64,000 bases of DNA, taken from the NCBI GenBank assembly GCA_963965975.1, contig OZ014412.1:1242501-1306500 (forward strand), given 5' to 3'. The notes below the pieces were generated by a model. The model ran no database searches and was not told where the DNA came from. It saw nothing but the letters and a program-made list of their open reading frames with translations. A program made the position numbers and the translations under genes. Positions 6,813 through 61,478 of the stretch are shown here, piece after piece; the first letter of the stretch is position 1; the number at the start of each line of letters is the position of its first letter. This DNA is from Xestospongia bergquistia. Its lineage: Eukaryota; Porifera; Demospongiae; Haplosclerida; Petrosiidae.

Positions 6813-9588
6813 CTACCAAAATAATTTTTTGGACTTTTGCAATTCTTGAACATAAGGAAGAGAGCTTGAGTCTTGTTCAGTATTAGTATTCATTTCATAT
6901 GTCATATGAGATGTAGTTTGTAATGATGTACTAGACTCTGAAGATAAAGATGGAGTTACTACAGTTTGGTTTGATGCAATAGGAGATACAAGTTGCTGAG
7001 GTGATAGTTCATCAGACAATTGATAAAGTCTCATAGATGATTGAAGATGCTGCCTTCTGACTTCAAGTAACTGTACATGAAAAAAACATCGATGATTAAA
7101 TTTATTAAATCAATAGTATACAGACTACAGGGCTCTATTGTTACTCTGTATAATAGTGCATGAATGAAAGTTATTTATTATAAAAGCAATTGATAATAAT
7201 TATAATATATTCATTTGTTGGTATCTCTGGTATATAAATGCCCTAGATAGTTGTTACTATCCTTCAATTTCTGTAATATAATGGCATTGAACACGCACAC
7301 AACTGCTTGTTTTACTGTCAACGCTATTTATTATTATCATTAATAATATTATATCTATTGTTTACAGAAGGTTACAAAATGTTACATATATTTGATCTGC
7401 ATTTAAACAGCTCTATAGAAAGTTTGTGTAGAAAGAAAAATGTGATGATAGTTACCTCCTCGTGATTAATGTGGTAAGGGTCTGGTGTTCTTGTCAGATC
7501 TTCATAACTTAGAAAATTATAAAAAAACAGTTATAACATCAGTATCATGTTATATCATTAACATACTTGTTTTTTAAAGCTTGTCGATTGTGAACTCTGG
7601 CTCTATCTATTAACTGAAATATAAAGAACTATTATAAGATAATAAATTCACAGACCTTGATTGTTCATCATTAACACTTTCTTTCTCCTTTTCCTCTGAA
7701 CATTAAGACATGTAACAACTATTATCATCATTAGTATTAAGATCACTCCAGCGATTACACCAAATAAAATGATATAGAGATTTCCAAGAGCTATGTATAA
7801 TATATATATATATATATATATATAGAATATAGTTGAGATACAAATTACTGCACAATTTCAGTCTTACAATCAGATTTTTCATTAGTAAACCACACAGATA
7901 TCTCAGTAGTAGTGACATTGGTAGAATCAATGACTATCTTGTCACCTGATGTAGTAAGATACCAAAGAACAGTCACATACATACTATACTATATACTCTT
8001 ACTAGTAAAAGGAACAGTCTCAGTAGGAGATGGTAGTAATAAGATATACTCCAGTATTTGAGGATACACAACAGATGGGTTAGTTATAATAGTACAATCT
8101 ACTATATCATGAGCTGTCACAGTATAGTTACCACTAACTGGTAGAGTTATATACTGGTATACTGTACTCTCCTCTATATTGGATTTACTCATATTAATAG
8201 ACTTTACAGTTCCTTTTGAAGACTCTCTAAATATCACATGACATCCATCAACAGTAGATCTCTCAGCAAACCTACACTCTACAACAACTGATCCATTATT
8301 AGAGTAGTACTGTAGAGTGAGTCCTTGAACATGATAAGTTTCTATTCAAGAAATAAGAGATTATTAATGAAATACTTCATAACATTTCATTATAGCTTAC
8401 TAAATATGATGTCATCTTGATTTTTTGTTTTCTTAAAAACATTTGCAATGTAGATGGCAAAATTAAAAATCATAAATGAACTTATGTTAGTGATAGTATA
8501 ATAAGTGACCATTACTAGGTCATTATCAGTAGTATTGACAAATTGAAAATTGTAAGTCATTTCTTTAGTTTGGCCAAATAAAAGACAATTACAAAGTTTA
8601 GGATAACCTTTGATCTAATATGTAATAAATTAGAATTTTAAATTAGTTTGTTAACTTACCATTATAGTGAATGTCACATTGAAGTCATTTATAATTCCAT
8701 CAAATATTACAGAATAATTCTGTATATTAATAACATAGTCTGTGGTATAATATGAAACATTGAGTAATGATATCTTTTCTACTCACTTTCAGAATACTCA
8801 TCTCTAATAGTAACATTATTAGAACTATATTCTCCATTATGAGCTATAACAGTAGCAGTGTAAATATCACAGACTGTGAGGTTATATAACTCATAAGATG
8901 TATCATCAGTGATATCATTATATAGTAACTGGTCATGTTGGTTCTCTATATAAATGTGATATGATATTGAATACTTCTTAAAAGGATGAGACCAGGTTAA
9001 CCAGAAAAGATAATTAAAAGTAAACTGGATATTTTCTACTGGTGTGATACCTGTCATTAAATAAATTGATACAAGTATGAAGTCTATATCTCATTGGTCT
9101 AATATAAACTGACCTTGAATATTTAGAGTGGCTCCTATTGCTATAGGATCAAAATTTTGATCTACAACAGTACACTGAACAATTATCCCATCATTAATAG
9201 GTAGTGCTCTTATAGTTAGTACTGATGACCACACATCAACTGATATATTCTTAGTAGTTACTGATATCTCTCTGTCTTCATTACTGGGATCGCTGAGTGG
9301 ATTATTTTCTACTGCCCAATAGAGTACCTTTCCTATACCCTCACAGCTAAAGTTAGCTAGCGTGTAAAGAGGAGGAGCTACTGAAGAGGGAGCTGTCGTG
9401 ATATTTGCTGAAATATAATATGTTAACTAAAATCTTTATGTAAACCGAGTATATACATGTGCTAGGAGTCTAAACACAACAATTTGATTATCTGTCATGC
9501 ATTTACCAGCAGCATTCGTATCTCTTGAAGTAAGTAGAAGACTCCCCATTATAAGTACAACCAGTTTTAGCATCTCTAAGTCTGTCAT
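6813..9588 (-). CDS. Receptor A: Ig-FN3 single-pass membrane receptor
   Basis: Eleven-exon model: 9588-9507, 9407-9114, 9050-8787, 8739-8660, 8614-8401, 8341-8003, 7945-7868, 7790-7656, 7606-7567, 7507-7456, 7070-6813. All introns are GT-AG and all phases fit, giving 611 residues. Order: signal peptide (LKLVVLIMGSLLLTS), Ig domain (cysteines in NFSCEG and VQCTV, core tryptophan in YWAVEN), FN3 domain (SYHIYIEN), two modules of unknown fold, the second starting TYHVQGLTLQYY and containing ECRFAER and DGCHVIF, a short linker, a transmembrane helix (LYIILFGVIAGVILILMMII) followed by KRRKK, then a tail of about 110 residues. The tail has a YEDL motif and ends in a Ser/Thr/Gln-rich segment. The start at 9588 gives the best signal peptide; the inner ATG at 9573 also works. 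Cell-surface recognition is inferred from architecture; the ligand is unknown. Confidence 0.85.
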
Positions 9589-14495: not shown

Positions 14496-15005
14496 AAATC
14501 AGCAAACACATTTCACCTGTAATAAAAAATTAAGCCATATAGTTCATATAATAGATGTCCCTGACATTTGTCTAGCGTTATTGTCAACAAAAGATAACAG
14601 CCCCACCTGACAGTAATAAAGTGATAATTATATTCATGGCTATATATATTAACATATCTTGACTCTTATTTCCTAGGACATGACTGATTGATTTTATAGT
14701 ATTATGGGAATATGATTCACTTTGTTCAGAATTTATAGTTTATTACTTTCCTAAAACCTGGTCTTTATATTAAATTTTAAATTAGTAATAAGACCTATTA
14801 AATGGTTCTAACCATTTTCCCTAGCATGTTTCTAGCCTCAAAGTCAGGATCAAATTCAAATTGAATAAAATGTACAAGCTTAAGATTACATTAACAATAA
14901 TATTTTGATAATCAACTATATATTTACATTATATATTTACTGTTGACTTGTCTGTGTTGCCTGTCAGCTCATCATGTATAAAGGATTTTGAGGTGACTAG
15001 TATAT

Positions 15006-15249
15006 GGGGCACCATTTGTGTCAAAATTGAATGCATTCAACGGTACATTTAAAATGTTATGATTTACTTTTTAATGTTCATTATTTGTTAAATAACTTGT
15101 GATTTACTAAGTAATGTGTGATTTATTAAATAATGTATATAATACATGATTTACTAAATAAATAAGAAGTAAATCAAGAGTTATTTAATAAATAATGACT
15201 AATTTATTATATCATGATAATTTTCCAATTTTGACACAAATGGCACCCA
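15006..15249. mobile_element. Short MITE with terminal inverted repeats
   Basis: Left end GGGGCACCATTTGTGTCAAA and right end TTTGACACAAATGGCACCC form an inverted pair of about 25 bp. The interior is AT-rich with repeated ATTTACTAAATAATG units and no coding sequence. Flanking TAT and ATA are compatible with a TA target duplication, which cannot be proved here. It lies just downstream of receptor B. Confidence 0.6.
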
Positions 15250-15516
15250 TAGAATATAGTTTGAAGTGGTATAGCAGCAAGTGATCTAGATTGTTAGAAC
15301 AGAAATTGTACTTGAGGAGACAGTCTTCCTACTTCAAGAAACTAGAAGAAATGTAAAATCACTATATAAGTTGATCTATAATAACATATACAATTATTAT
15401 ATCTACTTTATTAACAGTAACTTAAATTTGGATGGATTTCATGTAAATTAAATTTACTGTCTGTTAGCTGTGATATTGTTCTGATATTGCAGTCTTAATT
15501 ATAGACCTGACAAAAG

Positions 15517-18500
15517 CTAAAAGTAATATTGGTTACAATGACATATTAACTTGCATGTTGTTATAATAGTACCATTGTTCAAATAATGTCCTCCTCCTTC
15601 TAGATCTATATAAAAATAAAATTTATTAATGTTACATTGTATACCTTGATTTTGTGCCATTGGTTCCATTGATGTTGATTCCCTAGAACTGATATAAGTT
15701 AAAAGTAATATCAGTTACAATGATATATTAACTTACTTGTTGTTACCATTTGCTAAATCATGTCTTCCTCCATCTAGATTTATAATATATCAATGTCATC
15801 AATGTTATGTCATATACCTTGATTTTGTGCCATTGGTTCCATTGATGTTGATTCCCTAGAACTGATATAAGTTAAAAGTAATATCAGTTACAATGATATA
15901 TTAACTTACTTGTTGTTACCATTTGCTAAATCATGTCTTCCTCCATCTAGATTTATAATATATCAATGTCATCAATGTTATGTCATATACCTTGATTTTG
16001 TGCCATTGGTTCCATTGATGTTGATTCCCTAGAACTGAGATAAGTTAAAAGTAATATCAGTTACAATGATATATTAACTTACTTGTTGTTACCATTTGCT
16101 AAATCATGTCTTCCTCCGTCTAGATTTATAATATATCAATGTCATCAATGTTATGTCATATACCTTGATTTTGTGCCATTGGTTCCATTGATGTTGATTC
16201 CCTAGAACTGATATAAGCTAAAAGTAATATCAGTTACAATGATATATTAACTTACTTGTTGTTACCATTTGCTAAATCATGTCTTCCTCCGTCTAGATTT
16301 ATAATATATCAATGTCATCAATGTTATGTCATATACCTTGATTTTGTGCCATTGGTTCCATTGATGTTGATTCCCTAGAACTGAGATAAGTTAAAAGTAA
16401 TATCAGTTACAATGATATATTAACTTACTTGTTGTTACCATTTGCTAAATCATGTCTTCCTCCGTCTAGATTTATAATATATCAATGTCATCAATGTTAT
16501 GTCATATACCTTGATTTTGTGCCATTGGTTCCATTGATGTTGATTCCCTAGAACTGATATAAGCTAAAAGTAATATCAGTTACAATGATATATTAACTTA
16601 CTTGTTGTTACCATTTGCTAAATCATGTCTTCCTCCATCTAGATTTATAATATATCAATGTCATCAATGCTATGTCATATACCTTGATTTTGTGCCATTG
16701 GTTCCATTGATGTTGATTCCCTAGAACTGATATAAGTTAAAAGTAATATCAGTTACAATGATATATTAACTTACTTGTTGTTACCATTTGCTAAATCATG
16801 TCTTCCTCCGTCTAGATTTATAATATATCAATGTCATCAATGTTATGTCATATACCTTGATTTTGTGCCATTGGTTCCATTGATGTTGATTCCCTAGAAC
16901 TGATATAAGTTAAAAGTAATATCAGTTACAATGATATATTAACTTACTTGTTGTTACCATTTGCTAAATCATGTCTTCCTCCATCTAGATCTATAATATA
17001 TCAATGTCACCAATGTTATGTCATATACCTTGATTTTGTGCCATTGGTTCCATTGATGTTGATTCCCTAGAACTGATATAAGTTAAAAGTAATATCAGTT
17101 ACAATGATATATTAACTTACTTGTTGTTACCATTTGCTAAATCATGTCTTCCTCCATCTAGATTTATAATATATCAATGTCATCAATGTTATGTCATATA
17201 CCTTGATTTTGTGCCATTGGTTCCATTGATGTTGATTCCCTAGAACTGATATAAGTTAAAAGTAATATCAGTTACAATGATATATTAACTTACTTGTTGT
17301 TACCATTTGCTAAATCATGTCTTTCTCCATCTAGATCTATAATATATCAATGTCATCAATGTTATGTCATATACCTTGATTTTGTGCCATTGGTTCCATT
17401 GATGTTGATTCCCTAGAACTGATATAAGTTAAAAGTAATATCAGTTACAATGATATATTAACTTACTTGTTGTTACCATTTGCTAAATCATGTCTTTCTC
17501 CATCTAGATCTATAATATATCAATGTCATCAATGTTATGTCATATACCTTGATTTTGTGCCATTGGTTCCATTGATGTTGATTCCCTAGAACTGATATAA
17601 GTTAAAAGTAATATCAGTTACAATGATATATTAACTTACTTGTTGTTACCATTTGCTAAATCATGTCTTTCTCCATCTAGATTTATAATATATCAATGTC
17701 ATCAATGTTATGTCATATACCTTGATTTTGTGCCATTGGTTCCATTGATGTTGATTCCCTAGAACTGATATAAGTTAAAAGTAATATCAGTTACAATGAT
17801 ATATTAACTTACTTGTTGTTACCATTTGCTAAATCATGTCTTCCTCCGTCTAGATTTATAATATATCAATGTCATCAGTGTTATGTCATATACCTTGATT
17901 TTGTGCCATTGGTTCCATTGATGTTGATTCCCTAGAACTGATATAAGCTAAAAGTAATATCAGTTACAATGACATATTAACTTACTTGTTGTTACCATTT
18001 GGTAAATCATGTCTTTCTCCATCTAGATTTATAATATATCAATGTCATCAATGTTATGTCATATATACCTTGATTTTGTGCCCTTGATAGCTTTGTTTTC
18101 CTCTTCCAAACACAAACACAAACTATTCCAAGAATAACAATAAACATAAATACTACAACAGGAAGAACTATATTAAATAACCAATTGAAATTATGTGAAA
18201 CTAGAGTGTAAAAATTTATAAGTTCACTTGTGCATTTAACATATAAATACCATTAGCTATTCCATCAGTAGGTACCATTGATGTCATTATATTGGTAGTA
18301 TTGGTAATGTCACTGATCAGAGAGACAGTCCCATCATTAGTTGTAGTACCTAGTAAAATATAGAACAGTATAGCATATTTTATATATGTAATCTATTATA
18401 TATTACTTACTGTTAATAACACTAATTAAGTGGACTGTCTCATCACTTGATGAATTATTACCTAAGCACCACAAAAAAGTACATTAGAATAGTCTGCATG

Positions 18501-20036
18501 CACATTACTTACTGGTTATAAAAACAGTCTCAATAGGAGATGGTAGTAGAAAGATATACTCCAGTACACAAGGCTTGACAGATGGTTTAGTTATAATAGT
18601 ATCATTTACTATATCATGAGCTGTCACAGTATAGTTACCACTAACTGGTAGACTTATATACTGGTATACTCTACTCTCCTCTATACTGGATTTACTCATA
18701 TTAATAGACTTCACAGTTCCTTTAGAAGACTCTCTAAATATCACATGACATCCATCAGCAGTAGATCTCTCAGCAAACCTACACTCTATAACAACTGATC
18801 CATTATCAGAGTTGTACTGTAGAGTGAGTCCTTGAACATGGTAGGTTGCTATGGTGACAAGAGGAATGACATGTTATGAAGAATATCACATACTCACTAA
18901 AAAATGACTCATTTTTTGTTTTAGATCTATTCAATTGATCCAGTATATCAGCAGTAAAGATATACTTTAGTTGAGGACCAAGATTTAATACAGTATAGTT
19001 AACTGTGACTGATTGACATTCTTCTAAAGAACAAAAAATATCTTTCCAATTATGTTCTATTTCTGTTCCATTCAGTTGTCTTGTAGTACCCAGTAATGTG
19101 CTGTTACATATTCTAGCACTTCCAACAATCTATAATGTATATACTCAATATATAATACTTTATATAATGTGTTGTTAACTTACTGTGATTTGAATATCTA
19201 CATTAAAGGAATGACCATTATAGATGATCTCATGATCGAGCAATACAAAAACATTACTCTCTGTAAGAAGACAGAGATATCAAAGTCAACATAAATGTAA
19301 ATGTACTATTACTTTCATTACATTCCTCTTGTATAGTAACATTATTAGAACTATATTCTCCACTATGAGCTATAACAGTAGCAGTATAAATATCACAGAC
19401 TGTGAGGTTATATAACTCATAAGATGTATACTCAGTGATATCATTATATAGTAACTGGCCATGTTGGTTCTCTATATAAATATGATATGATATTGGAATA
19501 TTCTCAGACGAAAATGATGAAGTAGACCAGGTCAACAAGCCTGAAGTACCATTTAAAGTCAAATTCAAGTTGACTACTGGTGTAATACCTGTCATTGAAT
19601 GAAAAGAAAATACCTTGTATATACTCTATCAAACTAACCTTTAACTGCCAAATTAGCTCCCTTATTAATGGGAACAACATTTGGGCATACAACAGTACAT
19701 TGAACACTTATTCCATCATTAATAGGTAGTGCTCTTATAGTTAGTACTGATGACCACACATCAACTGATATATTGTTAGTAGTTACTGATATCTCTCTAT
19801 CTTGATTGCTTGGATCAGTGAGTTTATTACCTTCTACTGCCCAATAGAGTACCTTTCCTGTACCCTCACAGGTAAAGTTAGCCATTGTGTTGAGAGAAGC
19901 ATTCACTGAAGAGGGAGCTACTGTAATCACTAGAGGATAATTAAGCTAAGAAAGTACTTAATGGTATTGTGCCCTTACCAACAGCGTCTGTACATATCAA
20001 AATGAGTAGAAGACTTCCTAATGCAAATACAAACAT
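15517..20036 (-). CDS. Receptor B: Ig-FN3 membrane receptor with 14-fold repeated cytoplasmic tail
   Basis: Model exons: 20036-19979 (signal peptide MFVFALGSLLLILICTDAVG), 19929-19639 (Ig), 19588-19313 (FN3), 19260-19184, 19129-18898, 18848-18513 (TYHVQ module), 18461-18411, 18349-18251 (Ser/Thr-rich linker), 18200-18069 (transmembrane helix, NIVLPVVVFMFIVILGIVCV, then KRKTK). Next come 14 alternating pairs of 37- and 38-nt exons between 18022 and 15645, and a terminal exon 15599-15517. All junctions are GT-AG and all phases close, giving 894 residues. The tail is 14 in-frame copies of a 25-residue unit made of DGGRHDLANGNNK and ESTSMEPMAQNQ. The last copy is diverged (EGGGHYLNNGT) and carries the stop. 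The tail holds no tyrosine motif. Function unknown; cell-surface recognition inferred. Confidence 0.85.
15645..18022 (-). repeat. 173-bp tandem array of exon pairs inside receptor B
   Basis: Fourteen copies recur with a period of exactly 173 bp; the end of the motif CATTGGTTCC falls at 15667, 15840, 16013 and so on to 17916. Each unit is a 38-nt exon, a 44-nt intron, a 37-nt exon and a 54-nt intron. Copies are nearly identical. Differences include GATATAAG versus GAGATAAG in the longer intron, CCATC versus CCGTC (a silent change) and a Gly/Glu change in the 37-nt exon. The longer intron contains an inverted pair, AACTGATAT and ATATCAGTT. A diverged copy flanks each end. Confidence 0.95.
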
Positions 20037-21809: not shown

Positions 21810-23225
21810 TCTGTAGTGGATCTTACTAATAATTATGTATGAATATGTTATTATGGTTAGAGCATGCTCAGTTGTGTTGGTTCCTCACGCTTATCTAGAG
21901 GCTGTTTGTGTCTGTGTCTTTGTGTTATTATTACAATAAATCTTTGTCAATAGTAAGCACAGCCATCACAGTGATGACGAAGATGGCATTTAAACCCGCA
22001 TATGGTCAAATGCTAGAGTTTGAGCCATCGGCAGAGTCATTTTCAGTTTATGTGGAGCGAGTTAATCTGTTCTTCACTGCAAACGAAGTGCCAGAGGAGG
22101 AGAGAGTTCCCGTGTTTCTAACCATCATAGGAAAAAGTACCTATGCATTACTCAGGAACTTGTTACAGCCTAGCTTACCCAAGGACAAAACGTTTGAAGA
22201 CATAACGGAAATACTCAAGAAGCATTACCAACCTGTTCTGTCAGTGATTGCCGAGCAGTTTCAATTTCATAATAGGACTCAAAAGAGGGGGAAAGTGTTG
22301 CTGAGTATGTAGCCGAATTAAAGCAGTTATCGACTCACTGTCAGTTCGAGGCATACCTCGATGATGCCTTAAGAGATCGCTTGGTGTGTGGACTTCGGAA
22401 AGAGGCGACTACTATTAGAAGATCAGCTAACCTTCATGAAAGCCATGGAGATGGCTCAAAATATCAAGTCGGTTGACAAACAGACACTAGCAATAAAGAA
22501 TGCTGCTACAGTCCCAAGTGGTCTCACTAATCAAGTCTCTTCTTTAAGTACAATGTGTTACAGGTGTGGTAAATCGAATCATATCACCAGTCAGTGTCGC
22601 TATAAAGATGTTGATTGTTTGAAATGTGACAAAAGAGGTCACTTGAAAGCTGTCTGTCACAGTAAAGGACCTATGAGAGGCCGACCTCCAGTTAGTAGTC
22701 TTCACCCAAGTGAGACGTCCAAATGGTCAAAACTACACTCTAGATCACAGAGAACAAAATATATAGAAGAAATAGAAGATAAGAGCGGTAATCAGTCATT
22801 GGCATGAAATATTGCATACATCCCTAATCAGTGGAGTAGACCTATTAATCAACAAGTACTCAAAGGTATTCAGTAACACTCTGGGAACTATGTCTCAGTA
22901 TTTTGCAAAACTACGTCTCAAACCTGATACTAACCCCAAGTTCTGACACCCTCGTCCCGTACCTTTTCCACTTAAAGATGGAATAGAGAGAGAACTTGAC
23001 AAGCTCCAGTCAGCTGGAATCGTTGACCCTATTGTATTTAGTGAGTGGGCAGCACCTATCGTTGCTGTTCCCAAACAAGACAGCTCTATACGTATATGTG
23101 GTGACTATAAGGTCACGCTCAATCCATCATTAGAGATTGTCCAATACCATTACCAAAACCTGTAGAATTATTTGCTTCTGTTTCAGGAGGTAAGAAATTG
23201 ACAAAACTAGATTTGTCTCAGGCAG
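21810..23225 (+). mobile_element. Ty3/Gypsy-like LTR retrotransposon fossil
   Basis: Recognisable parts: a gag-like region starting near 21983 (FKPAYGQMLEFEPSAESF), a double zinc knuckle near 22555-22665 (CYRCGKSNHITSQC and CLKCDKRGHLKAVC), and the start of reverse transcriptase near 22940-23225 (PVPFPLKDGIERELDKLQ, FSEWAAPIVAVPKQD, KKLTKLDLSQA). A 5' LTR probably lies before the gag region, but its edges could not be fixed. The copy is broken, with several breaks, and looks old. It lies between host genes on the opposite strand. Confidence 0.8.
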
Positions 23226-26300: not shown

Positions 26301-27420
26301 TAAAGTATTCTTGTGATTTCACAACCATTTTTATAGTGAGCATACTATTTTCCATTTATGCACAATATACACATGAAGAAAATCCCTTGACTAGAGAAGA
26401 GCACTTAAGAGAATCTCCCTAACTGTTGATATTACTATGGCTTTTACAATAACACTTTGCTTACAAAAGCACATATCACGATAATTACATGATACATGTC
26501 ATAGAATAGTGCACTTTACTATGTTCTTGAAACCACTAGGTCTATATGGGTAACACTATTACTGCTGTGGCCCTATCTTGTCAGGAGAGTGTTCATGAAA
26601 AGCTTGTTGTTTCTTCTTCATGACATTCCACAAAGCAATACCATAGGGAAGAGAGAGAGTATTAAAGTGGTAGAGTGAAAGTAATACAGTGGAGCTCAAA
26701 AAAGTTCAGACATCTCCCTCATGTTTCTCATTAGAAATAGTACTTAAACATACCTACTTAGTATTGATTTATATCCTTAGTTAATGAACGACATAGCATT
26801 AGAAGATGAAGAATGCAGACACTAATATATCAGAAGTATTTTATGTTAATTAAAGTTCAAAACATTACCACAAATACTGTTGCAGGTACATAGCACTGCT
26901 TAAAAAGTGTCTCCAGCCAAATCTAGTTGTGTCCATTTTTAAGTATGAGAAATCCTACGCTTTTACATTAGAATAAATATAACAACACCCATAGCTTGTT
27001 CCAAATCTTTCTTTTATTTTCATTGAACTAGACATACAAGCAGAACACCACCCATTGTAAGATGTGTAGTACTTAATGGAACAACTTACAGCTGCTCAGT
27101 TACGTCTATTCAAAAGCTATTTACACAAGAACAACTAGAGCAGTAATTATAAAAAGGGCAAGTTAGTACAAGTCAAAGGTATGACATTTAGGTAAATACA
27201 ATGGTTCCATCAGCCTGGTCAATAAGAAGTTTGACTACATTTCATGCATGATAATGCCTCTTGCCATCTTTTGGTAATAGCAGATCATGACTTATTTCAG
27301 ATACTACAGAGGCTGTATACAAGTACCAATAATAAAAGAGGGCTCTGGTGAAGTAGATAAATCCTGATGTGGCACAACAACAGGTGATATAGTTTGTGAA
27401 GGAGGCAGGTTTGAGGTGCT
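26301..27420. other. Non-coding spacer
   Basis: No exon or element is recognised. Confidence 0.4.
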
Positions 27421-27770
27421 GTTACTATATATAACTGATGGCACTTACATCGTCACTGACATATGACAGTACACTGTAGTACTGTTACTATATATAACTA
27501 ATGGTACTTACATCATCACTGACATATGACAGTACACTGTAGTACTGTTACTATATATAGCAGATGGGACTTACATCGTCACTGACATATGACAGTACAC
27601 TGTAGTACTGTTACTATATATAACTGATTGTACTTATATCGTCACTGACATATGACAGTACACTGTAGTACTGTTACTATATATAACTGATTGTACTTAC
27701 ATCGTCACTGACATTTGACAGTACATTGTAGTACTGTTACTATATATAACTGATGGTTGACTCACTCTCT
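27421..27770. repeat. 63-bp minisatellite, about 5.5 copies
   Basis: GTTACTATATATAACTGATG recurs at 27421, 27484, 27547, 27610, 27673 and 27736, an exact 63-bp period with a few substitutions. Every forward frame read on the minus strand is closed. Confidence 0.95.
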
Positions 27771-35875: not shown

Positions 35876-38800
35876 TTAATATTTTACAGTTTCTGGTCCA
35901 GGATTAAGTTCAATATCTCCTGATAAAATAAGAAGAAGCAAGAAAAATGAGGCTAGAGAGAAGGTCAGGTAACCACTACACTCATCTCTTGGTCCCCTTT
36001 CTGACCAATGTAACTGCCTCCATCCTGGGAGATCAGAAGTTGTTCCTTGTGGACTCTGTATATATATTGTACGATGATCCTCTAACTCATGAGTAGTAAG
36101 TTTAACATCAACTGTTGCTATGAAAATATAAAAAAAAGATAAATAAACAAATTTCAAAATATAATACAATCATAGTACTTTATACCATATAAAATACATA
36201 ACACAGTATATAATATAATACATAGTGCATTATATAAACTGTATCTATTATTTGACATGGCAAAACCCAGTGTTGTCATATTTACTAATTATGAGTTCTA
36301 ATACAGTATGAGAAAGTATTCACAAAGTATGTACTGTGTCATTCAATACACAATGGTTGAAACAAAGCCTCATACAACTCCTCTAATTATATACCATCTT
36401 TGCTAAAACAGGAAATGAGAAGTCAAACATTATTAAGCTGGTACATTTATCATAATACACAGTCATCCTCACAGAACATTAGCTCAATTTTATTCTATCA
36501 ATGGCCATATTAAACATTATAAAGTTAGAGGGCTATCATGGTTCAAGGTGGACAAGTGATCCTGACCTTGGTTTTAACTAAAATGCATCAATTAAATTAT
36601 AACTTTTTTGAAATTTTTTAATTTACCTAAAGCATCATCAACAAGGGGAAGCCTTTGAGTTTCCTGAGGTCTGTATTCAGATTCATCAGATCTAATATTA
36701 TAAAGACATAATTCAATATACTATATAGTTCATAATAATTTACTCATTAATAATAGGATCACATGTGTTATTGTCATCATCATCATTGACTTGAATCACA
36801 CCTTGAACATTAGAACAAGTGACAATATCATTTGTTATACTTAACTTCTGAGTGGTATAAACAAGTTCAGGTGAGGAAAGATCAATCACACGATTCTTAT
36901 CTGAATCAGGTTCATCTTCAATAATACATTCCAGGGAGATACAATCACAAGGAGAAGACATAACATCTTCAGCACTAGAATTAAATGTATGCATCTGGGT
37001 GATTAACATTTCCTCTTGATATGATGATTTGGTGTTACTGAATATACGAGTTGAATCTTTATCGTCATTAATAACCTGATTTGGTAACTTACTATCCACT
37101 AACAACAAAATAAATTAAAATAAGAAAATTATATAAACTTACCAAACCAAACTGAACACTCGTTATCAGTTAAAGTGGTTGGAGATATATAAACACAGTC
37201 ATCATTATCAGCTATTAATATAAAGTATATGATGTCATTTCAATGATTATTATCTATTTACCAGTATCATTCTGATCTGGAAGTTTATCATTAACGTCAA
37301 GAGGACTTATCCCAGGTGAAAATGTCTCCTATATTGGAAAAATTCACTTTATTGTAAGGATCTTTAAAGTAACGTATACAATAAAGTAAGCAGACAATAT
37401 ATTAGACCTTTGTACAATAATATTAATAATATTATGATAATATAATATATATGATATTATAATTATAATATTAACAATATTGTAACTATATGTTCTATAG
37501 GTTACAATAACAAAATCAAACATGATAGATCCTCTTTAGGACTTGATATACTCTATCCTTCCTAATAAGATGTGATCAAGTTTAAGCCCTTAATACACAG
37601 GCTGTAACATCATTATTAACATACTATTAACTACTAATGACACGTTATTAATTAACAATGAATCAGCTTTAAGTGACTTAGCATACAAAATGATTCTACA
37701 AATGTGACCTAATTTGTGACAAGGGACTACTTCTGCCAAAACATTTGTCATGTGTAAAGGAAACACTGTTAAAACATCTCCAAATACATTTTGTATACAT
37801 ACAGTTACTACATATATATATATATATGTATATATATACAACTACTTATGGTAACTATGTACACAAAACTGCTTTTGAGGTGTTTTAACAGTGTATCCTT
37901 TACACATGACAAATGTTTTGGCAGAAGTAGTCCCTTATGCAAATCAAGTCACAAATGATTGCAACAAAAATGTGATAGTTATTATTATCATCTTACTTAA
38001 ATATTATGTCTAACACATACTTAAGGTGGTGGTACAGCGGAAGTCAAAAGCCAAATAATTTTATTATAATAATATATTCATACTATTATTAACATGGATG
38101 TAGTTCCAAGATAATAAACAGAATCTTAGCCCACACCCTATTGACAACATTATGAATATAATTAACATTCTTTATTCTAAAGTGTTATGGCTTCATGTAG
38201 TTGTACACATGAGGTTAAGGTCTCAAACAATAGTAAATTCTTACTTCTTTGTTATATAAATCTGATTTAGTTTGTGTCAGTTCAGATAAGTCTTCATATC
38301 TAATAGATAATAACAATTATATCTATTTTCAAAGACATGATATAACATACTTGTTGTTAGCTTGTGAATTCTTTGCTACATCCATCTCTGTTAGTAAGCA
38401 AACTTATATAATTAATATCTATCACTAGTAAGTTTTGTCTTACCTTTACTGACATCAGTGACATTTGCTGTCTTATGCTTCTGATCAACTGATATTACTC
38501 TTCCATGTAAAACAACAACAATAGCAACTCCAGCCACTATATACACAACTAAAATGACAATAGCTCCACATGATGTAGCTATAACAGCAAAGTACCCATT
38601 AACTGTATTGTAAGAAAATAAGTAATACAATATGTACTACTCATTACTTACTATCATAGCCAGTAAATAGTAGTAAGATATACTCCAGTATTTGAGGGTA
38701 CACAACAGATGGATTAGTTATAATAGTGCCATCTACTATATCATGAGCTGTCACAGTATAGTTACCACTAACTGGTAGACTTATATACTGGTATACTCTA

Positions 38801-40434
38801 CTCTCCTCTATACTGGATTTACTCATATTAATAGACTTCACAGTTCTTTTAAAAGACTCTCTAAATATCACATGACATCCATCAGCAGTAGAACTCTCAG
38901 CAAACCTACACTCTACAACAACTGATCCATTATTAGAGTAGTACTGTAGAGTGAGTCCTTGAACATGATAGGTTGCTATGGTGATAATGAAGGAATATAA
39001 ACATTTATTCTATTTAAACTAGCTTACTGAAAATTTCTTTCTCATTCACTTTTGATACATTGATATTATTTAACACTTGTCCAATAAAAATCCAGTTCAG
39101 TTGAGGAGCAAGATGCAATATAGTATAGTTAACAGTCACCAATATCTTATGAGAACAATTAATATTCATATGGGCATGTTCTCTTTCTGGGCCATTTGAT
39201 GTATTTTCTTTTGTTATACCCAGTAATGTACTATTGCACAGTAGAGGATATCCTATAATCTGTTGCATAGCAACAATAATAATTAGACATAATACTGTAG
39301 TTAACTTACCATGATTTGGAAAATGACATTGAAAGTGTTAGAGTTCTCAAATAAGACTGTATAATTATGTATTACAAGACGATATTCTGTAAGCAATTAA
39401 GATTATTAGTTAAAACACTGTTCAAAGTGCTATATAGTACAAATCATACAAGGAATACAGTCAAGATAATCATATAGCACAGGGCAAAGGTGGATAGTGC
39501 ATGATTCTTTAAATGATTAACAGTGTACTTGAGCTTATCAAAGGCACTCAAACAAAGTTATTTAATTTTTCATGTTCGTTATAACTAGCATGCAATCCAT
39601 TCATATATATGACCCATGCAGCGAAGTTGAAATTGTACAGATATAACTCACTCACTATATTATATCATTATAGTAATATAACAACATACCACCAGAAAAC
39701 TCTTCATGAATTGTCACATTAGATGATGAATAATGTTGTCCATTATCTATTACTTTCACTGTAGTAGCGTAAATATCACAGACTGTGAGGTTATATAACT
39801 CATAAGATGTATCATTAGTGATATCATTATATAGTAACTGGCCATGTTGGTTCTCTATATAAATGTGATATGATATTGGATAGTTCTCAAATGGATGTGA
39901 CCAGATCAAATAGCCTGATAAAGGATTGGTATAATTGAATATTAACTGGAGGTTTTCCACTGGTATGATCCCTATCATTAAACAATTAAAGTAATGAAGA
40001 CTCATACTAGCTTACCTTCAATTGTTAAAGTAGCACCTTTAAATGCAAAATCAAGATTTTGATCTAAAACAGTACATTGAACACTTATCCCATCATTAAT
40101 AGGTAGTGCTCTTATAGTTAGTACTGATGACCACACATCAACTGATATATTGTTAGTAGTTACTGATATCTCTCGACCTTGGTTACTGGGATCAGTCAAT
40201 AAGTTACCCCTTACTGACCAAGATAGCCTACTTCCCATACCCTCACATGTAAAGTTTACCAGTTTGTAAAGTTGAACAGTAACAGACAAGGGAGCTATTT
40301 TGATATCTGGATAGAGAGTCATGGTAATTAGGACTAAACAGTCATTGTCTCTTACCAACAGCATTGATCATTTCCAGAACAAGTTGAACGATTGCTAGAC
40401 AAGAAAAAGTATATATTAAATTGGTAAGTTCCAT
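35876..40434 (-). CDS. Receptor E: Ig-FN3 membrane receptor ending in a 2A-like motif
   Basis: Fourteen-exon model: 40434-40356 (signal peptide), 40306-40016 (Ig), 39971-39690 (FN3), 39386-39310, 39259-39028, 38975-38652 (TYHVQ module), 38602-38444 (transmembrane helix, AIVILVVYIVAGVAIVVVL), 38387-38351, 38299-38245 (YEDLSELTQTKSDLY), 37328-37262, 37211-37143, 37098-36744 (acidic), 36691-36627, 36117-35876. All introns are GT-AG and all phases close, giving 777 residues. The last exon has a second hydrophobic segment (YLTFSLASFFLLLLILSG) directly followed by DIELNPGP and PETVKY-stop. A donor after PET could instead join a 111-nt exon at 35833-35723 (VSFKSCHSEVSSEHDN...). Its start codon is fixed by the signal peptide. 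Gene C follows 394 bp downstream on the same strand. Confidence 0.85.
35894..35917 (-). other. 2A-like ribosome-skipping motif (DIELNPGP)
   Basis: The codons GAT ATT GAA CTT AAT CCT GGA CCA encode D-I-E-L-N-P-G-P, an exact match to the D(V/I)ExNPGP consensus of 2A peptides, where the ribosome fails to join Gly and Pro. Known 2A regions are preceded by a hydrophobic or helical stretch and often by G before the D; here SG follows a long hydrophobic segment. 2A-like motifs are known from some invertebrate non-LTR retrotransposons and NLR-like host genes. Activity here is untested. Confidence 0.7.
37700..37957. mobile_element. Foldback (hairpin) MITE in receptor E intron
   Basis: Inverted arms 37721-37780 and 37877-37936 are nearly complementary over about 60 bp (AAGGGACTACTTCTGCCAAA on the left), with weaker pairing outward for about 20 bp more. 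The loop holds a TA-rich stretch at 37810-37845. It lies between tail exons of receptor E and carries no frame of interest. Confidence 0.75.
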
Positions 40435-52900: not shown

Positions 52901-55900
52901 TTAATTATTGTTATTATATATTCATTGATATGTGAGGAGGAGTTAACATTAGCAATAGAAAAAGTAAGAAGTGATTTCTGGAGCTAATAGATTTTGTTTA
53001 TTAACACAACACACAGCTATATGCAGTATAAGAGTCTATAAAGATTACTTGCTTTTGTATAATAGTATATAATAACTATATTTAACAGAATTTCTTGACC
53101 ATATCTTAGCCAAAATTTCAAATTGCTAGCAAATTGTTGTAAAAATATTTTGGTGAATAAACTTTGGTGAAACGGGCTTCTTTTCTAGTCCAGCACCCCC
53201 TTTGTCAATAAACAAATTGACTATTGAAGATGGAAACTCCTTCTTGAATGAACTTTCAGGATCAGGTATTCTTAATATTGCCAGTCGAAAATAGAGACAC
53301 AAAAACCAATAATATAACACCTACAAAAACTTTGGATGAATAAAGTTTTTAAAAAATCACCACTTTTGCCAACTTTTTTACCTAACCAATTGTTTTGGCT
53401 ATAAGGTATTCCATCAACATATTCACCGTTTTGTTATTGCTTGGGATGTGCAGTGTGCCAGTCAGTCCAAAATCATTTTGGACTATGTTTTTATGTATAT
53501 ATATAAGTGTGCATGTATGTGTTTATATACATATACATATATATATATCACGGTTTAGATGTCTATATGTGTTATTAAATGTCATGACATAGGAAGTTGT
53601 AAAAAATATCTAGAAGGTGATATCTATATTTTTAGCATTCTATAGCTATAGTCTTCTATTGATGTTTCAACAACTTCATTACTCACATGGTTAGGTGTTT
53701 TATCTTTATGACAAGGATTAGATTCATCACTAAAAGCTGTTTCACTTTCTACATTAGATCGGTCCTGTAATAGAGTAAGAGAGGACTCTTAAGAGGTTGG
53801 TGAAGTTATTGATGCAACAGGAGGTGATATATTCTGAAGTTGTACTTTAAAAAGTGATATATCACACTTTTAATTGATCTTAATATAACATATAGTTATT
53901 TACTACATAACCAGCACTTAGTATTATCTCATACCTCATCAACTTGTTTTGTTGTAGTAGTACTAGTAAATGTATACACAAAGCATAATATCAGTGTCAG
54001 TAATATGTTAACATACATGTGGTCTATGTGTAATGTCGCTTTTTCTGCATCTATTAGAAAGAAATATAGTAATGTCATTATTTTACCACTATATACCTTT
54101 ACTGATAATCTTCTTCTTCTTCCTCTTCTTCCAAACAATACAACAAATGACAACTATTGTTATCACAACTATTGTTAGTAAAACTCCAGTAACTATACCA
54201 ATCCAATAAAGATTTCCTATAGCTGTAGTACAAAAAATAAAACTTGTACACTTATACTTAACTTACTATTAGAAAAATGATTAGTAGGTTCTACAGATGT
54301 CATTATAACAGGTGTACCAGTAATATTATTGATCTTGTTAGAGACTCTCTCATCATAAGTTATTGTATCTGTAGTAAGACATCAGAGAAAAATACACAAT
54401 AATCAGTGTTGATATTGTGCCTAGTGAGTCATCAATATTATATAGTACAGTACAATACTCAATACATTACTTACTAGTAGTATTAACAGTCTCAGTAGGA
54501 GATGGTAGTAGTAAGATATATTCCAGTACTTGAGGGTACACAACAGATGGGTTAGTTATAATAATACCATCTACTATATCATGAGCTGTCACAGTATAGT
54601 TACCACTAACTGGTAGAGTTATATACTGGTATACTGTCCCCTCCTCTATACTGGATTTATTCATATTAATAGACTTCACAGTTCCTTCAGAAGAGTCATT
54701 AAATATCACATGACATCCATCAGCAGTAGATCTCTCAGCAAACCTACACTCTACAAGAACTGATCCATTATCAGAGTAGTACTGTAGAGTGAGTCCTTGA
54801 ACATGATAGATTGCTATATACATGGAATATGGATAACTGGAATATGGAAGATATATAAATTTTAATAACTTACAAAATATCACATGATCTTCATTCTTTG
54901 TGTTATTAAATAAATCCATAATATATGCAGTAAATGTATAATTGAGAGAAGGATGTAGTCCAGTTATATTATAATATATTGTTGTTTCATTAACATCAGT
55001 AACATTCTTAATATAAACATGATGATAGGTTGTTGTCTCATTGTTAACATTATCCTTTGTTATACCATATATGGTACTAGTACATAGGTGAGGGAAACCT
55101 TTGATCTAGAAAATATATATTAATTAAAATTATTGTAATGTGTTTATATAATGTAGTCCTTACATTGATAGTAAATGATACTTGTATTATAGAACTGTTT
55201 CCAGAGTTATTAAATTTCACATCATGGTTAACAATGTCAATAGTATTATCTAATATATTATAATAAATATATAATAAACATTTAATATAATCTTACTTCC
55301 AGTAATTTGTTTAGTAGCATTAGTAGCTGGTGAACTATATTGTTTAACAGAAGCTATAACAGTAACATTATAAAAATCACAGACAATGAGGTCACTAGGT
55401 AACTGATAGAATATATCGGTTGTATTATCATCTACTATGACAGAACCATTTTGATTCTGCACATAAACATGATATATTGTAATACTTCCTTGTGGAATAT
55501 CATCAGAGTAAAATGATGGAGGAGACCAGGTTAAGGAAGGATTGTTAATAAAATCTGAATCAACGTGTTGGACAAATGAAATACCTATAAAAATAATATT
55601 ATAATTGACTGAACAAAATTTAGCTGTCTAGCAGTAAGAATTATGAGCTTCATAAAATGTTATTACCAGAGTAATAATATATACTTTAATTGAATAGATA
55701 TGGTCTACAAATTAATGATGACACGAAATAATAGATTGATCAAACTCTATTGTTGCATGTCATCAAAATAAGCTATTGATAAAACAAACCACAATCAATT
55801 AAAAATACATGCCAAGCAATCTAAATTGATTTGAACCAAATGTTATGTATAAAGACATGTTGTTCTACCCATCATCCTTCATGCGACAGGTTGTCCTATG

Positions 55901-60695: not shown

Positions 60696-61478
60696 CTAAA
60701 TACCAGAAGTTTTAAAATCATCAGAAGCTGCTACTGTGAGTAACCATCATGGCCCTTCAACATTGCATTCAATGATAGCTTTATCTGTTTGATGAATGTT
60801 TTGGTGGCTAAACATTTCATTTAGAAAAAAAGTAATGGAACAAGCAGATTTAGAGATGGCTAATGTCAGTCCTTTTTTACAAATAATTCAAACAAGAAGG
60901 TATCCTTACATTTGCTTCTTTTTCTGAAAATGTTTTATTTACTTGGAATAAAAAAATTAAATGTTAATGAAGGTGTTCTAAGTGTTAACACTTTAGCAAA
61001 AGTTTTCTATGCAATTCAGTTATACGAACTTTAAACTAACATATCTGATTATTTCATATACTAGAAACTAACCTTTAACTGTTAAAGTAGCTCCTTTTTG
61101 ATCAAGATCAATATTGTCACCAACAACACTCCATATATTACATCCAACATCTACCCCATCATTAATAGGTAGTGCTCTTATAATTAGTACTGATGACCAC
61201 ACATCAACTGATATATTGTTAGTAGTTACTGATATCTCTCTGTCTTGATTACTGGGATCAGTGACTGGAAAGCCCTCTAGAGACCACTTCAATATATCTC
61301 CTTTACCCACACAAGTAAAGTTAGCCAGTGTGTATATTAGAACAGACATTGGTAAGGGAGTTTCCGTTACTTTTGCTGTGTCAAAAAGAGAGCAGTTAGA
61401 TGTGCAATCTAGATTAACACTTCGCTTACCAGCAAAAAGAAACTTTATTAATATACATACTGATAAAATTCTCGTCAT
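44000..61478 (-). CDS. Receptor F: Ig-FN3 receptor fused to GTPase-tail and death-like module
   Basis: About 31 exons. Ectodomain: 61478-61430 (signal), 61375-61073 (Ig), 55584-55297 (FN3), 55249-55164, 55105-54874, 54813-54475 (module starting IYHVQGLTLQYY), 54368-54267, 54222-54097 (helix, GIVTGVLLTIVVITIVVICC, then KKRKKK). Tail: 54050-54017, 53962-53935, 53764-53687, 52625-52572, 52294-52261, 52204-52133, 52083-51767, 50753-50475, 50222-50156, 50105-50037, 49992-49638, 49587-49523, 48914-48694 (2A-like relic), 48642-48556, 48503-48354. A duplicated block follows: 47953-47667, 47616-47552, 46943-46723, 46671-46585, 46532-46104. Last come a weak exon near 46058-46035 and the death-like exons 44321-44154 and 44103-44000. 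Phases close throughout. The intron 61072-55585 holds the BEL/Pao fossil. The 3' half matches gene C, including GTPase-end and death exons, so this is a fusion. It could instead be two genes; transcripts would decide. Confidence 0.65.
44400..46030. other. Intron of receptor F with decayed gene C-like sequence and unknown insert
   Basis: Stretches at 44440-44620 and 45840-46015 resemble the gene C intron at 28640-28870 in order, so the whole 3' part of a C-type gene was duplicated here. The 44760-45780 stretch has no counterpart in gene C and looks like an insertion. It shows no terminal repeats that could be fixed, and its frame at 45463-45696 is unrecognised. Confidence 0.45.
46729..46752 (-). 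other. Altered 2A-like motif (DIELNYGP), copy 1
   Basis: Same exon as the receptor E 2A exon, with a hydrophobic run (LTFSLALVLLILSG) before DIELNYGP. The first proline of NPGP is tyrosine. That residue is part of the core required for 2A activity, so skipping is expected to be lost. Confidence 0.7.
48700..48723 (-). other. Altered 2A-like motif (DIELNYGP), copy 2
   Basis: Identical to the copy 1971 bp away, as expected from the recent duplication. The change to tyrosine therefore predates the duplication. Confidence 0.7.
50408..50437. repeat. ATT microsatellite
   Basis: Short run of TTA triplets within a receptor F intron. Confidence 0.9.
50475..50665 (-). repeat. 30-bp coding minisatellite in a receptor F tail exon
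   Basis: The exon encodes repeated 10-residue units such as NVDTVPSHDI, DVDIGSPCDG, NVNTVPHCDI and NVDTVPTLDI. Because the DNA period is 30 bp, the opposite strand is also open across it (50337-50753); that antisense frame is a by-product. Confidence 0.75.
51600..51700. repeat. CA/TA-rich microsatellite
   Basis: Alternating TACATATA and CACACACA stretches in a receptor F intron. Confidence 0.8.
52630..53680. other. Receptor F intron, unrecognised content
   Basis: A minus-strand open stretch at 53320-53126 (FIDKGGAGLEKKPVSPKFIH) is not bounded by convincing splice sites and matches nothing known to me. A CATATACATATATATATA microsatellite lies near 53530. Confidence 0.35.
55600..56590. other. 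Receptor F intron, AT-rich
   Basis: Nothing recognised between the FN3 exon and the interspersed repeat. Confidence 0.4.
56592..56806. repeat. Interspersed repeat, second copy
   Basis: Matches 41994-42208. It ends 14 bp before the 5' LTR of the BEL/Pao fossil and lies in the same receptor F intron. Confidence 0.75.
56820..60503 (+). mobile_element. BEL/Pao LTR retrotransposon fossil
   Basis: LTRs at 56820-56967 and 60361-60503 both start TGTTGACATTTATCAGGC and end CTCATATTCA. They differ at several per cent of positions plus small indels, pointing to moderate age. A TGGTCCACCGAACCGG primer-site-like sequence follows the 5' LTR. Recognisable parts: a coiled-coil-rich gag-like region from 57115, a zinc-knuckle-like region near 58520-58600, and an integrase region from about 58923 to 59953 (QCVTCRRYTCKPQY, VGVDYAGPIKIKYG, WCFIPEHGPNFGGLWEA), then a C-terminal domain to 60208 (LEVGDIVLLKEDG). 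The element is broken, with several breaks. It lies on the plus strand in an intron of receptor F. No target duplication was evident. Confidence 0.85.
60655..60697. repeat. TA microsatellite
   Basis: Pure TA run in the receptor F intron between the BEL/Pao fossil and the Ig exon. Confidence 0.95.

Follow-up and report, generated by a model that had tools for sequence, protein, structure and literature searches.

How does a gene come to end in 14 near-identical copies of a two-exon unit, are those copies read as part of a receptor, and is there anything that maintains them? The question is raised by an array of tandem 173-bp units on the minus strand (15645..18022) of the window, by which we mean the whole stretch of 64,000 nucleotides that was analysed (C2:1242501-1306500; positions are those of the window unless a contig is named), and it was followed across the genome searched, which comprises 146.46 Mb in 21 contigs. 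Read on the minus strand, each unit consists of a 37-nt exon (T1), a 54-nt intron, a 38-nt exon (T2) and a 44-nt intron. T1 runs from phase 1 to phase 2 and T2 from phase 2 back to phase 1, and the 75 coding nt per unit amount to 25 codons, giving 350 predicted residues for the 14 units (direct parse, with the last 44-nt intron excluded from the coordinates). Tandem Repeats Finder reports the same array at 15502-18086, with a period of 173, 14.9 copies, 97% matches and 0% indels. The initial annotation had described 14 tandem two-exon cassettes that keep splice sites and frame in every copy and are followed by a diverged last copy with the stop, and all of this is borne out: counted from 18022 downward, every one of the 14 units is exactly 173 bp long, GT..AG borders both introns and the frame is kept in 14 of 14, and the 15th copy contains a TAG stop both when its GC donor is used and when it is skipped.

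The units have diverged very little. T2 is one and the same sequence in all 14, and T1 has 3 variable columns out of 37 (DGGR in 10 units and DGER in 4, with P for A in unit 1). Among the 54-nt introns, 3 of 54 columns are variable across 14 copies, and among the 44-nt introns 4 of 44 across the 13 internal copies, the second intron of the last unit being diverged; the 78 pairs formed by the 13 complete units are on average 98.4% identical. In unit 1, T1 (17986..18022, 37 nt, phase 1 in and 2 out) is predicted to encode DGERHDLPNGNN, and T2 (17894..17931, 38 nt, phase 2 in and 1 out), which the array parse, the gene model and a comparison of exon ends lead us to read as a chimeric exon, K/ESTSMEPMAQNQ. 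Tandem acceptor AGs stand 6 nt apart at 14 of 14 T2 exons (CAGTTCTAG) and at 3 of 14 T1 exons (TATAGATCTAG). With acceptors doubled in this way, T2 has two possible lengths, 38 and 44 nt, either of them in frame, and the 44-nt form was the choice of the crude gene finder built for this analysis. The repeated unit has a net charge of -2, a mean hydropathy of -1.62, no tyrosine and no other aromatic residue, a composition that falls on the disordered side of a charge-hydropathy boundary.

The gene that carries the array, modelled by joining GT-AG exons by hand, has 38 exons, all on the minus strand; its 894 codons, the stop counted, give 893 predicted amino acids. Exon 1 (19979..20036) holds the start codon at 20036 and a signal-peptide-like stretch, MFVFALGSLLLILICTDAV, that forms a hydrophobic N-terminus. 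Exon 2 (19639..19920) carries the family signature DREISVTTNNISVDVWSSVLTIRALPINDGISVQC and, judged from a C..W..C pattern, a putative Ig-like domain, for which Pfam Ig_3 gave E=0.044, below cut-off, in one of three exon-2 proteins and nothing in four further paralogs. Exon 3 (19313..19588) is a predicted fibronectin type III (Fn3) domain, with a Pfam fn3 score of 20.2 bits in the array gene (cut-off 25) and scores above the cut-off in 4 of 5 paralogs; the Pfam run on further paralogs took in 9 of 32 family sequences. Exons 4 (19184..19260) and 5 (18898..19129) lead to exon 6 (18513..18848), a membrane-proximal domain common to the family according to genome matches, followed by two linkers rich in Ser, Thr and Asn, one short (exon 7, 18411..18461) and one in exon 8 (18251..18349), and by the transmembrane exon (exon 9, 18069..18200; hydropathy 3.3 over 19 residues). 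Beyond the array, the last exon (15517..15605) is the decayed 15th copy, with a changed donor, a shifted frame, three tyrosines in its decayed end and the stop TAG. The predicted ectodomain, the transmembrane exon and the 28 mini-exons contain no frameshift and no stop. Introns of 44-54 bp had been thought unusual, a view that we do not share, because the nine introns upstream of the array measure 46-61 nt in the gene-model coordinates and those of the array are therefore ordinary for this gene.

The splice reading of the mini-exons is supported by single-copy counterparts with the same intron phases elsewhere in the family. Behind the transmembrane exon, three other members have a phase-1-to-2 exon (37, 37 and 40 nt) with NNK or NNN at its end, and after it a phase-2 exon that opens with a tyrosine motif, YEDL or YEDP. 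These predicted exons agree in position and phase with T1 and T2 of the array, and the 3' end of T1 before the donor, AACAACAA, is also present in two of the three counterparts. One such pair lies in a neighbouring family member within the window, where the tail-exon comparison places the T1 counterpart (37 nt) at 38351..38387 and the T2 counterpart, starting with YEDL, at 38245..38299, both on the minus strand. The comparison omits one row (G138.3) with a wrong acceptor and stops. The earlier proposal that a frame-neutral two-exon cassette forms a receptor tail thus stands as a prediction, given that the array adjoins the transmembrane exon and that its exons have single-copy counterparts in three members. 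The gene finder behind the tail models used hand-set splice weights and codon scores trained on tblastn hits of the receptor family; several of its 22 tail models overrun, either adding short exons of doubtful validity or entering the gene that follows (anchor 36539), and selected parts of them were used.

Matches to exons 2 and 6 show that the array gene has about 100 predicted relatives, and the members modelled within 244 kb look like single-pass receptors with Ig-like and Fn3 domains. Exon 6 has at least 125 genome matches (some of them pieces of one exon, with 150 of 241 candidates scored), mostly at C2:0.9-2.4 Mb and otherwise further along C2 and on C1, C4, C7 and C12, and the core of exon 2 has at least 103, of which 100 are free of stops. 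That core is a conserved stretch of ~35 residues, DREISVTTNNISVDVWSSVLTIRALPINDGISVQC, within a variable exon (window 19640-19918), and its matches, at least 103, are mostly 80-100% identical. The clustered family extends over C2:0.9-2.43 Mb and includes window parts 7995-9426, 18513-20036, 38653-40331, 54473-55534 and 61071-61361. Its predicted tails fall into an NPxY-like class (at least 42 matches, with 40 of 69 candidates scored), a YED class (at least 11 matches with one query and at least 2 with another, queries included) and the cassette class, which occurs at four places in the genome with 14+1 (the array gene, its extra copy decayed), 3, 2 and 1 copies. With these tail classes, the cluster of roughly 100 genes is a candidate recognition or immune complex. 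In the paralog at anchor 106316, the NPxY-like tail exon seems to be present twice (C2:1217465-1217976; two tblastn hits ~400 bp apart), and tail exons may thus duplicate in another class too.

Where the unit came from may be read from its own ends. We infer that it is a duplication reaching from inside the transmembrane exon to inside a native T2, and we regard the fit as tight. The last 22 nt of exon 9 agree with the 3' part of the repeated T2 at 18 of 22 positions in the array gene, and the same comparison gives 14, 15 and 15 of 22 in paralogs A, B and C and 8, 9 and 11 of 22 in three genes of the YED class. When 360 donor-like exon ends (four donor patterns, with the array and the transmembrane exon of the array gene left out) were ranked against these 22 nt of T2, the top three places went to cassettes of paralogs A and B, and ranks 4-6 to the transmembrane-exon ends of B, C and A (15, 15 and 14 of 22). 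Matches at 14 or more of 22 positions make up 0.03% of all strand 22-mers, with the array and the true matches counted in. The other breakpoint is suggested by paralog A, where the repeated T2 occurs in two units and the T2 of a third unit is identical for 16 nt and then differs, with a tyrosine. The pieces sum to the unit, 22+44+37+54+16 = 173, of which 22+37+16 = 75 nt are coding, and a duplication with in-exon breakpoints would explain at once why the unit is 173 bp long and frame-neutral, why its 38-nt exon looks chimeric and why the tyrosine is missing. The repeated 38-nt exon accordingly looks like a tyrosine-free chimera. The end of the transmembrane exon is closer to T2 in the array gene than in the paralogs, which suggests a later exchange between the two. 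Within the array, units two apart are more alike than under shuffled order (p = 0.012; lag 1, p = 0.13), a weak pattern from one of two lags tested that fits an exchange of two-unit blocks (9-10 with 11-12).

Taken as a whole, the reading that we prefer, and hold to be reasonably probable, is that of a coding exon minisatellite, a receptor-tail module that arose by duplication with in-exon breakpoints, was amplified to 14 copies and has all of its cassettes spliced in. A tandem duplication with one breakpoint in the transmembrane exon (contributing its last 22 nt) and the other in the second tail exon (contributing its first 16 nt) would have joined these fragments as a new 38-nt exon with the frame preserved, and the tyrosine of the native second exon, as seen in paralog A, would have been left outside the repeat. 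Unequal exchange between near-identical units would then have raised the number to 14. With every cassette spliced in, the receptor would carry an acidic, disordered and tyrosine-free tail of ~350 residues; it would bind via its ectodomain, its signalling would be weaker or different, and its tail would alter in length in 25-residue steps.

The array gene also differs from its paralogs in what follows the cassettes. Paralogs A and B have additional predicted tail exons, those of A with tyrosine stretches such as FVYISL and LVYITQ, and these exons gave no tblastn match (E up to 1) between the array gene and the next gene. An approximate tail-exon remnant with an in-frame stop is present there (15255..15350, minus strand; blastn similarity to C2:1227451-1227486 and C2:1130129-1130194), and directly beyond it sits a MITE-like interspersed element (15002..15252, unstranded) with inverted termini, judged by eye, and internal inverted repeats. 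The element is also found near C2:1137.5 kb and at C2:1222.8-1223.2 kb, on both strands at one of these places. With the tail exons missing, the last copy decayed and the remnant bearing a stop, the array would appear to extend a tail that lacks the apparent signalling part of the family. Unlike the tails of ITIM/ITAM immunoreceptors, the repeated unit of the array gene contains no tyrosine; tyrosine motifs are present in predicted tails of other paralogs.

These losses lend weight to a serious rival, which we nevertheless consider unlikely, namely that the array is a neutral exon minisatellite that has run away in a receptor whose signalling tail had already been lost, tolerated because it is frame-neutral and maintained by no function. 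The missing downstream exons and the element beyond the remnant count in its favour, and the cluster contains other arrays whose coding structure does not exceed that of shuffles (144 bp x 48, 63 bp x 29), so the region seems to expand repeats readily. The array gene also has the highest pN/pS in exon 6 (1.16) of 21 members, with a median dN/dS of 1.00 against the 20 others, and constraint on it is possibly relaxed. However, the ectodomain, the transmembrane exon and all 28 mini-exons are open, and the exon 2 and exon 3 ratios of the array gene are ordinary for the family (rank 11 of 16 and 12 of 18, respectively). Median dS in the same region is 0.098 for exon 6, against 0.335 for exon 3 and 0.377 for exon 2, which puts exon 6 at roughly a quarter to a third of their synonymous divergence. 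Strong purifying selection was considered as the reason for the high protein identity of exon 6 and was rejected, since dS is low too; the low dS instead suggests homogenisation by gene conversion or more recent copying. The dN/dS and Pfam sets exclude tblastn hits of low coverage and those with stops (2 of 18 for exon 2, 0 of 18 for exon 3, 5 of 12 for exons 4-5 and 0 of 21 for exon 6). Selection on the tail itself cannot be demonstrated from units that are 98.4% alike, which makes the intact copies few independent observations. Set against neutral tolerance, candidate roles for the repeat tail are those of a spacer, a multivalent Ser/Thr docking site or a decoy tail.

Our preferred reading has all cassettes spliced in, and a second rival departs from it on this point, proposing a length ladder in which block skipping of cassettes yields receptors with 0 to 14 of them from one gene. 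Among the donor-acceptor joins possible between the transmembrane exon, the 28 mini-exons and the last exon, 225 of 435 are in frame, namely all those that join alternating exon types, and the gain or loss of units, by recombination or splicing, would therefore shift tail length by 25-residue steps. Splice sites are near-identical in all units, and the tail exons of chicken BG genes are described as alternatively spliced (PMC4046983). The other 210 of the 435 joins break the frame, though, retention of either array intron leads to an early stop, and identical sites offer no obvious means of selecting among cassettes. We consider the ladder improbable.

It is very improbable that the array is a non-coding satellite or a pseudogene whose splice-like look arose by chance. 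The decayed last copy could be taken to favour this, as could the finding that 83 of 2000 pieces of 173 bp, drawn at random from this gene-rich region, reach a score of 15 or more and so do as well as the unit; the eight best-scoring pieces lie within or beside family genes, judged by their positions. Against it, dinucleotide shuffles, 2000 each of units 2, 1 and 13, equalled the open, spliced and frame-keeping path of the unit in 0, 1 and 0 cases, which is 1 in 6000 for three results that are not independent because the units are near-identical. The corresponding single-copy exons of three other genes, in matching phases, and the 100 stop-free matches among the 103 to the exon-2 core point the same way. 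The same control was applied to tandem units of 144, 143, 112 and 63 bp, which had seemed possible further exon cassettes from their splice-like look and were rejected: on each strand, at least 13 of 60 shuffles reached their score or there was no open path. Long arrays of this kind in the cluster are 63 bp x 5.4 (window 27419-27757), 63 bp x 29 (C2:1177902-1179756) and 144 bp x 48 (C2:1347681-1354589); GTAAGT is present in the 63- and 144-bp units, yet they have no open spliced path above shuffles. As for the number 14 being an assembly artefact, assemblies can easily collapse or expand such similar units, but those of the array carry distinguishing variants in a weakly non-random order and paralogs with 2-3 copies are located elsewhere, and we give the idea hardly any credence.

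The initial annotation knew of no described family with such an arrangement. Three precedents correct this, in chicken BG genes (PMC4046983), Argiope MaSp2 genes (PMC9779670) and the KIV-2 repeat of human LPA (PMC11201333). The long cytoplasmic tails of chicken BG (butyrophilin-like) proteins are reported to be encoded by 13-36 exons of 21 (sometimes 24) nt, one exon per repeat, in 57 sequence groups, with a coiled coil of one heptad per exon as the proposed structure; both alternative splicing and read-through of tail exons are seen in BG cDNAs, and an ITIM tyrosine motif is reported in the tail of one member (PMC4046983). Both are clustered families, of Ig-type transmembrane receptors in BG and of predicted receptors here (Fn3 supported, Ig weakly supported), both build the tail from frame-neutral small exons (here 28 mini-exons predicted from sequence), and in both the number of exons differs among members (here 1, 2, 3 and 14+1 in four genes). 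In contrast to BG, the exons here are of 37/38 nt, form a two-exon unit of 75 nt (25 residues) in near-identical copies, and are predicted to encode a disordered tail; we claim no homology.

The closest match in structure is found in a secreted protein. Some Argiope MaSp2 genes have a repeated unit of two exons and two introns with two alternating, homogenised intron types, and within-gene intron similarity averages 97.6%; the authors, who call these introns novel, state that they know of no other eukaryotic example (PMC9779670). The predicted unit described here likewise has two exons and two introns, with both intron types homogenised. Theirs encodes a Gly/Ala-rich silk, whereas here the unit would derive, on our reading, from a duplication across existing receptor-tail exons. 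In human LPA, KIV-2 has two exons per kringle and is a coding repeat whose copy number differs between people (PMC11201333); the likeness lies in a two-exon coding repeat, the repeated parts there being kringle domains and the variation in number here being seen between paralogs. The Hydractinia Alr family, with 41 genes in one complex, comprises Ig-type allorecognition receptors (PMC11999971) and is likened to the present family by description only, as Ig-type receptors of an early-branching animal; a repeated tail cassette is not described in the accessible portion of that report. We would therefore rank chicken BG as the nearest working parallel and Argiope MaSp2 as the nearest structural one. 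Given the BG, MaSp2 and KIV-2 precedents, the array is best seen as an alternating-intron exon repeat that happens to build a receptor tail, and its likely breakpoints can be read. Among titles and abstract openings in the open-licence literature, we found no paper describing this receptor family or the array. What is new here is the tail-exon counterparts, the origin at in-exon breakpoints, the copy series among paralogs and the loss of tail exons.

If spliced as predicted, the array would place two homogenised, alternating intron types outside silk, a combination that the Argiope authors thought unique (PMC9779670). Paralogs with 1, 2, 3 and 14+1 copies make steps of its growth readable, and the proposed breakpoints illustrate how a single duplication cut within exons can both create a chimeric mini-exon and leave the resulting unit frame-neutral. 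If expressed, the tail would offer a parallel to those of chicken BG in a set of ~100 candidate recognition receptors, and tail length would be a trait that can be genotyped. A broader and decidedly speculative extension, which we think improbable as a whole, is that a candidate recognition-receptor family of an early animal lineage acquired length-variable tails independently of birds, with the tyrosine-free cassette diluting or replacing a signalling motif and with unequal exchange and block skipping setting tail length per individual or cell. Apart from the receptor genes, the window contains a retroelement gag-like region of two open stretches on the plus strand (21899-22807), the second of which has a CCHC knuckle (Pfam zf-CCHC_5, E 4.8e-7).
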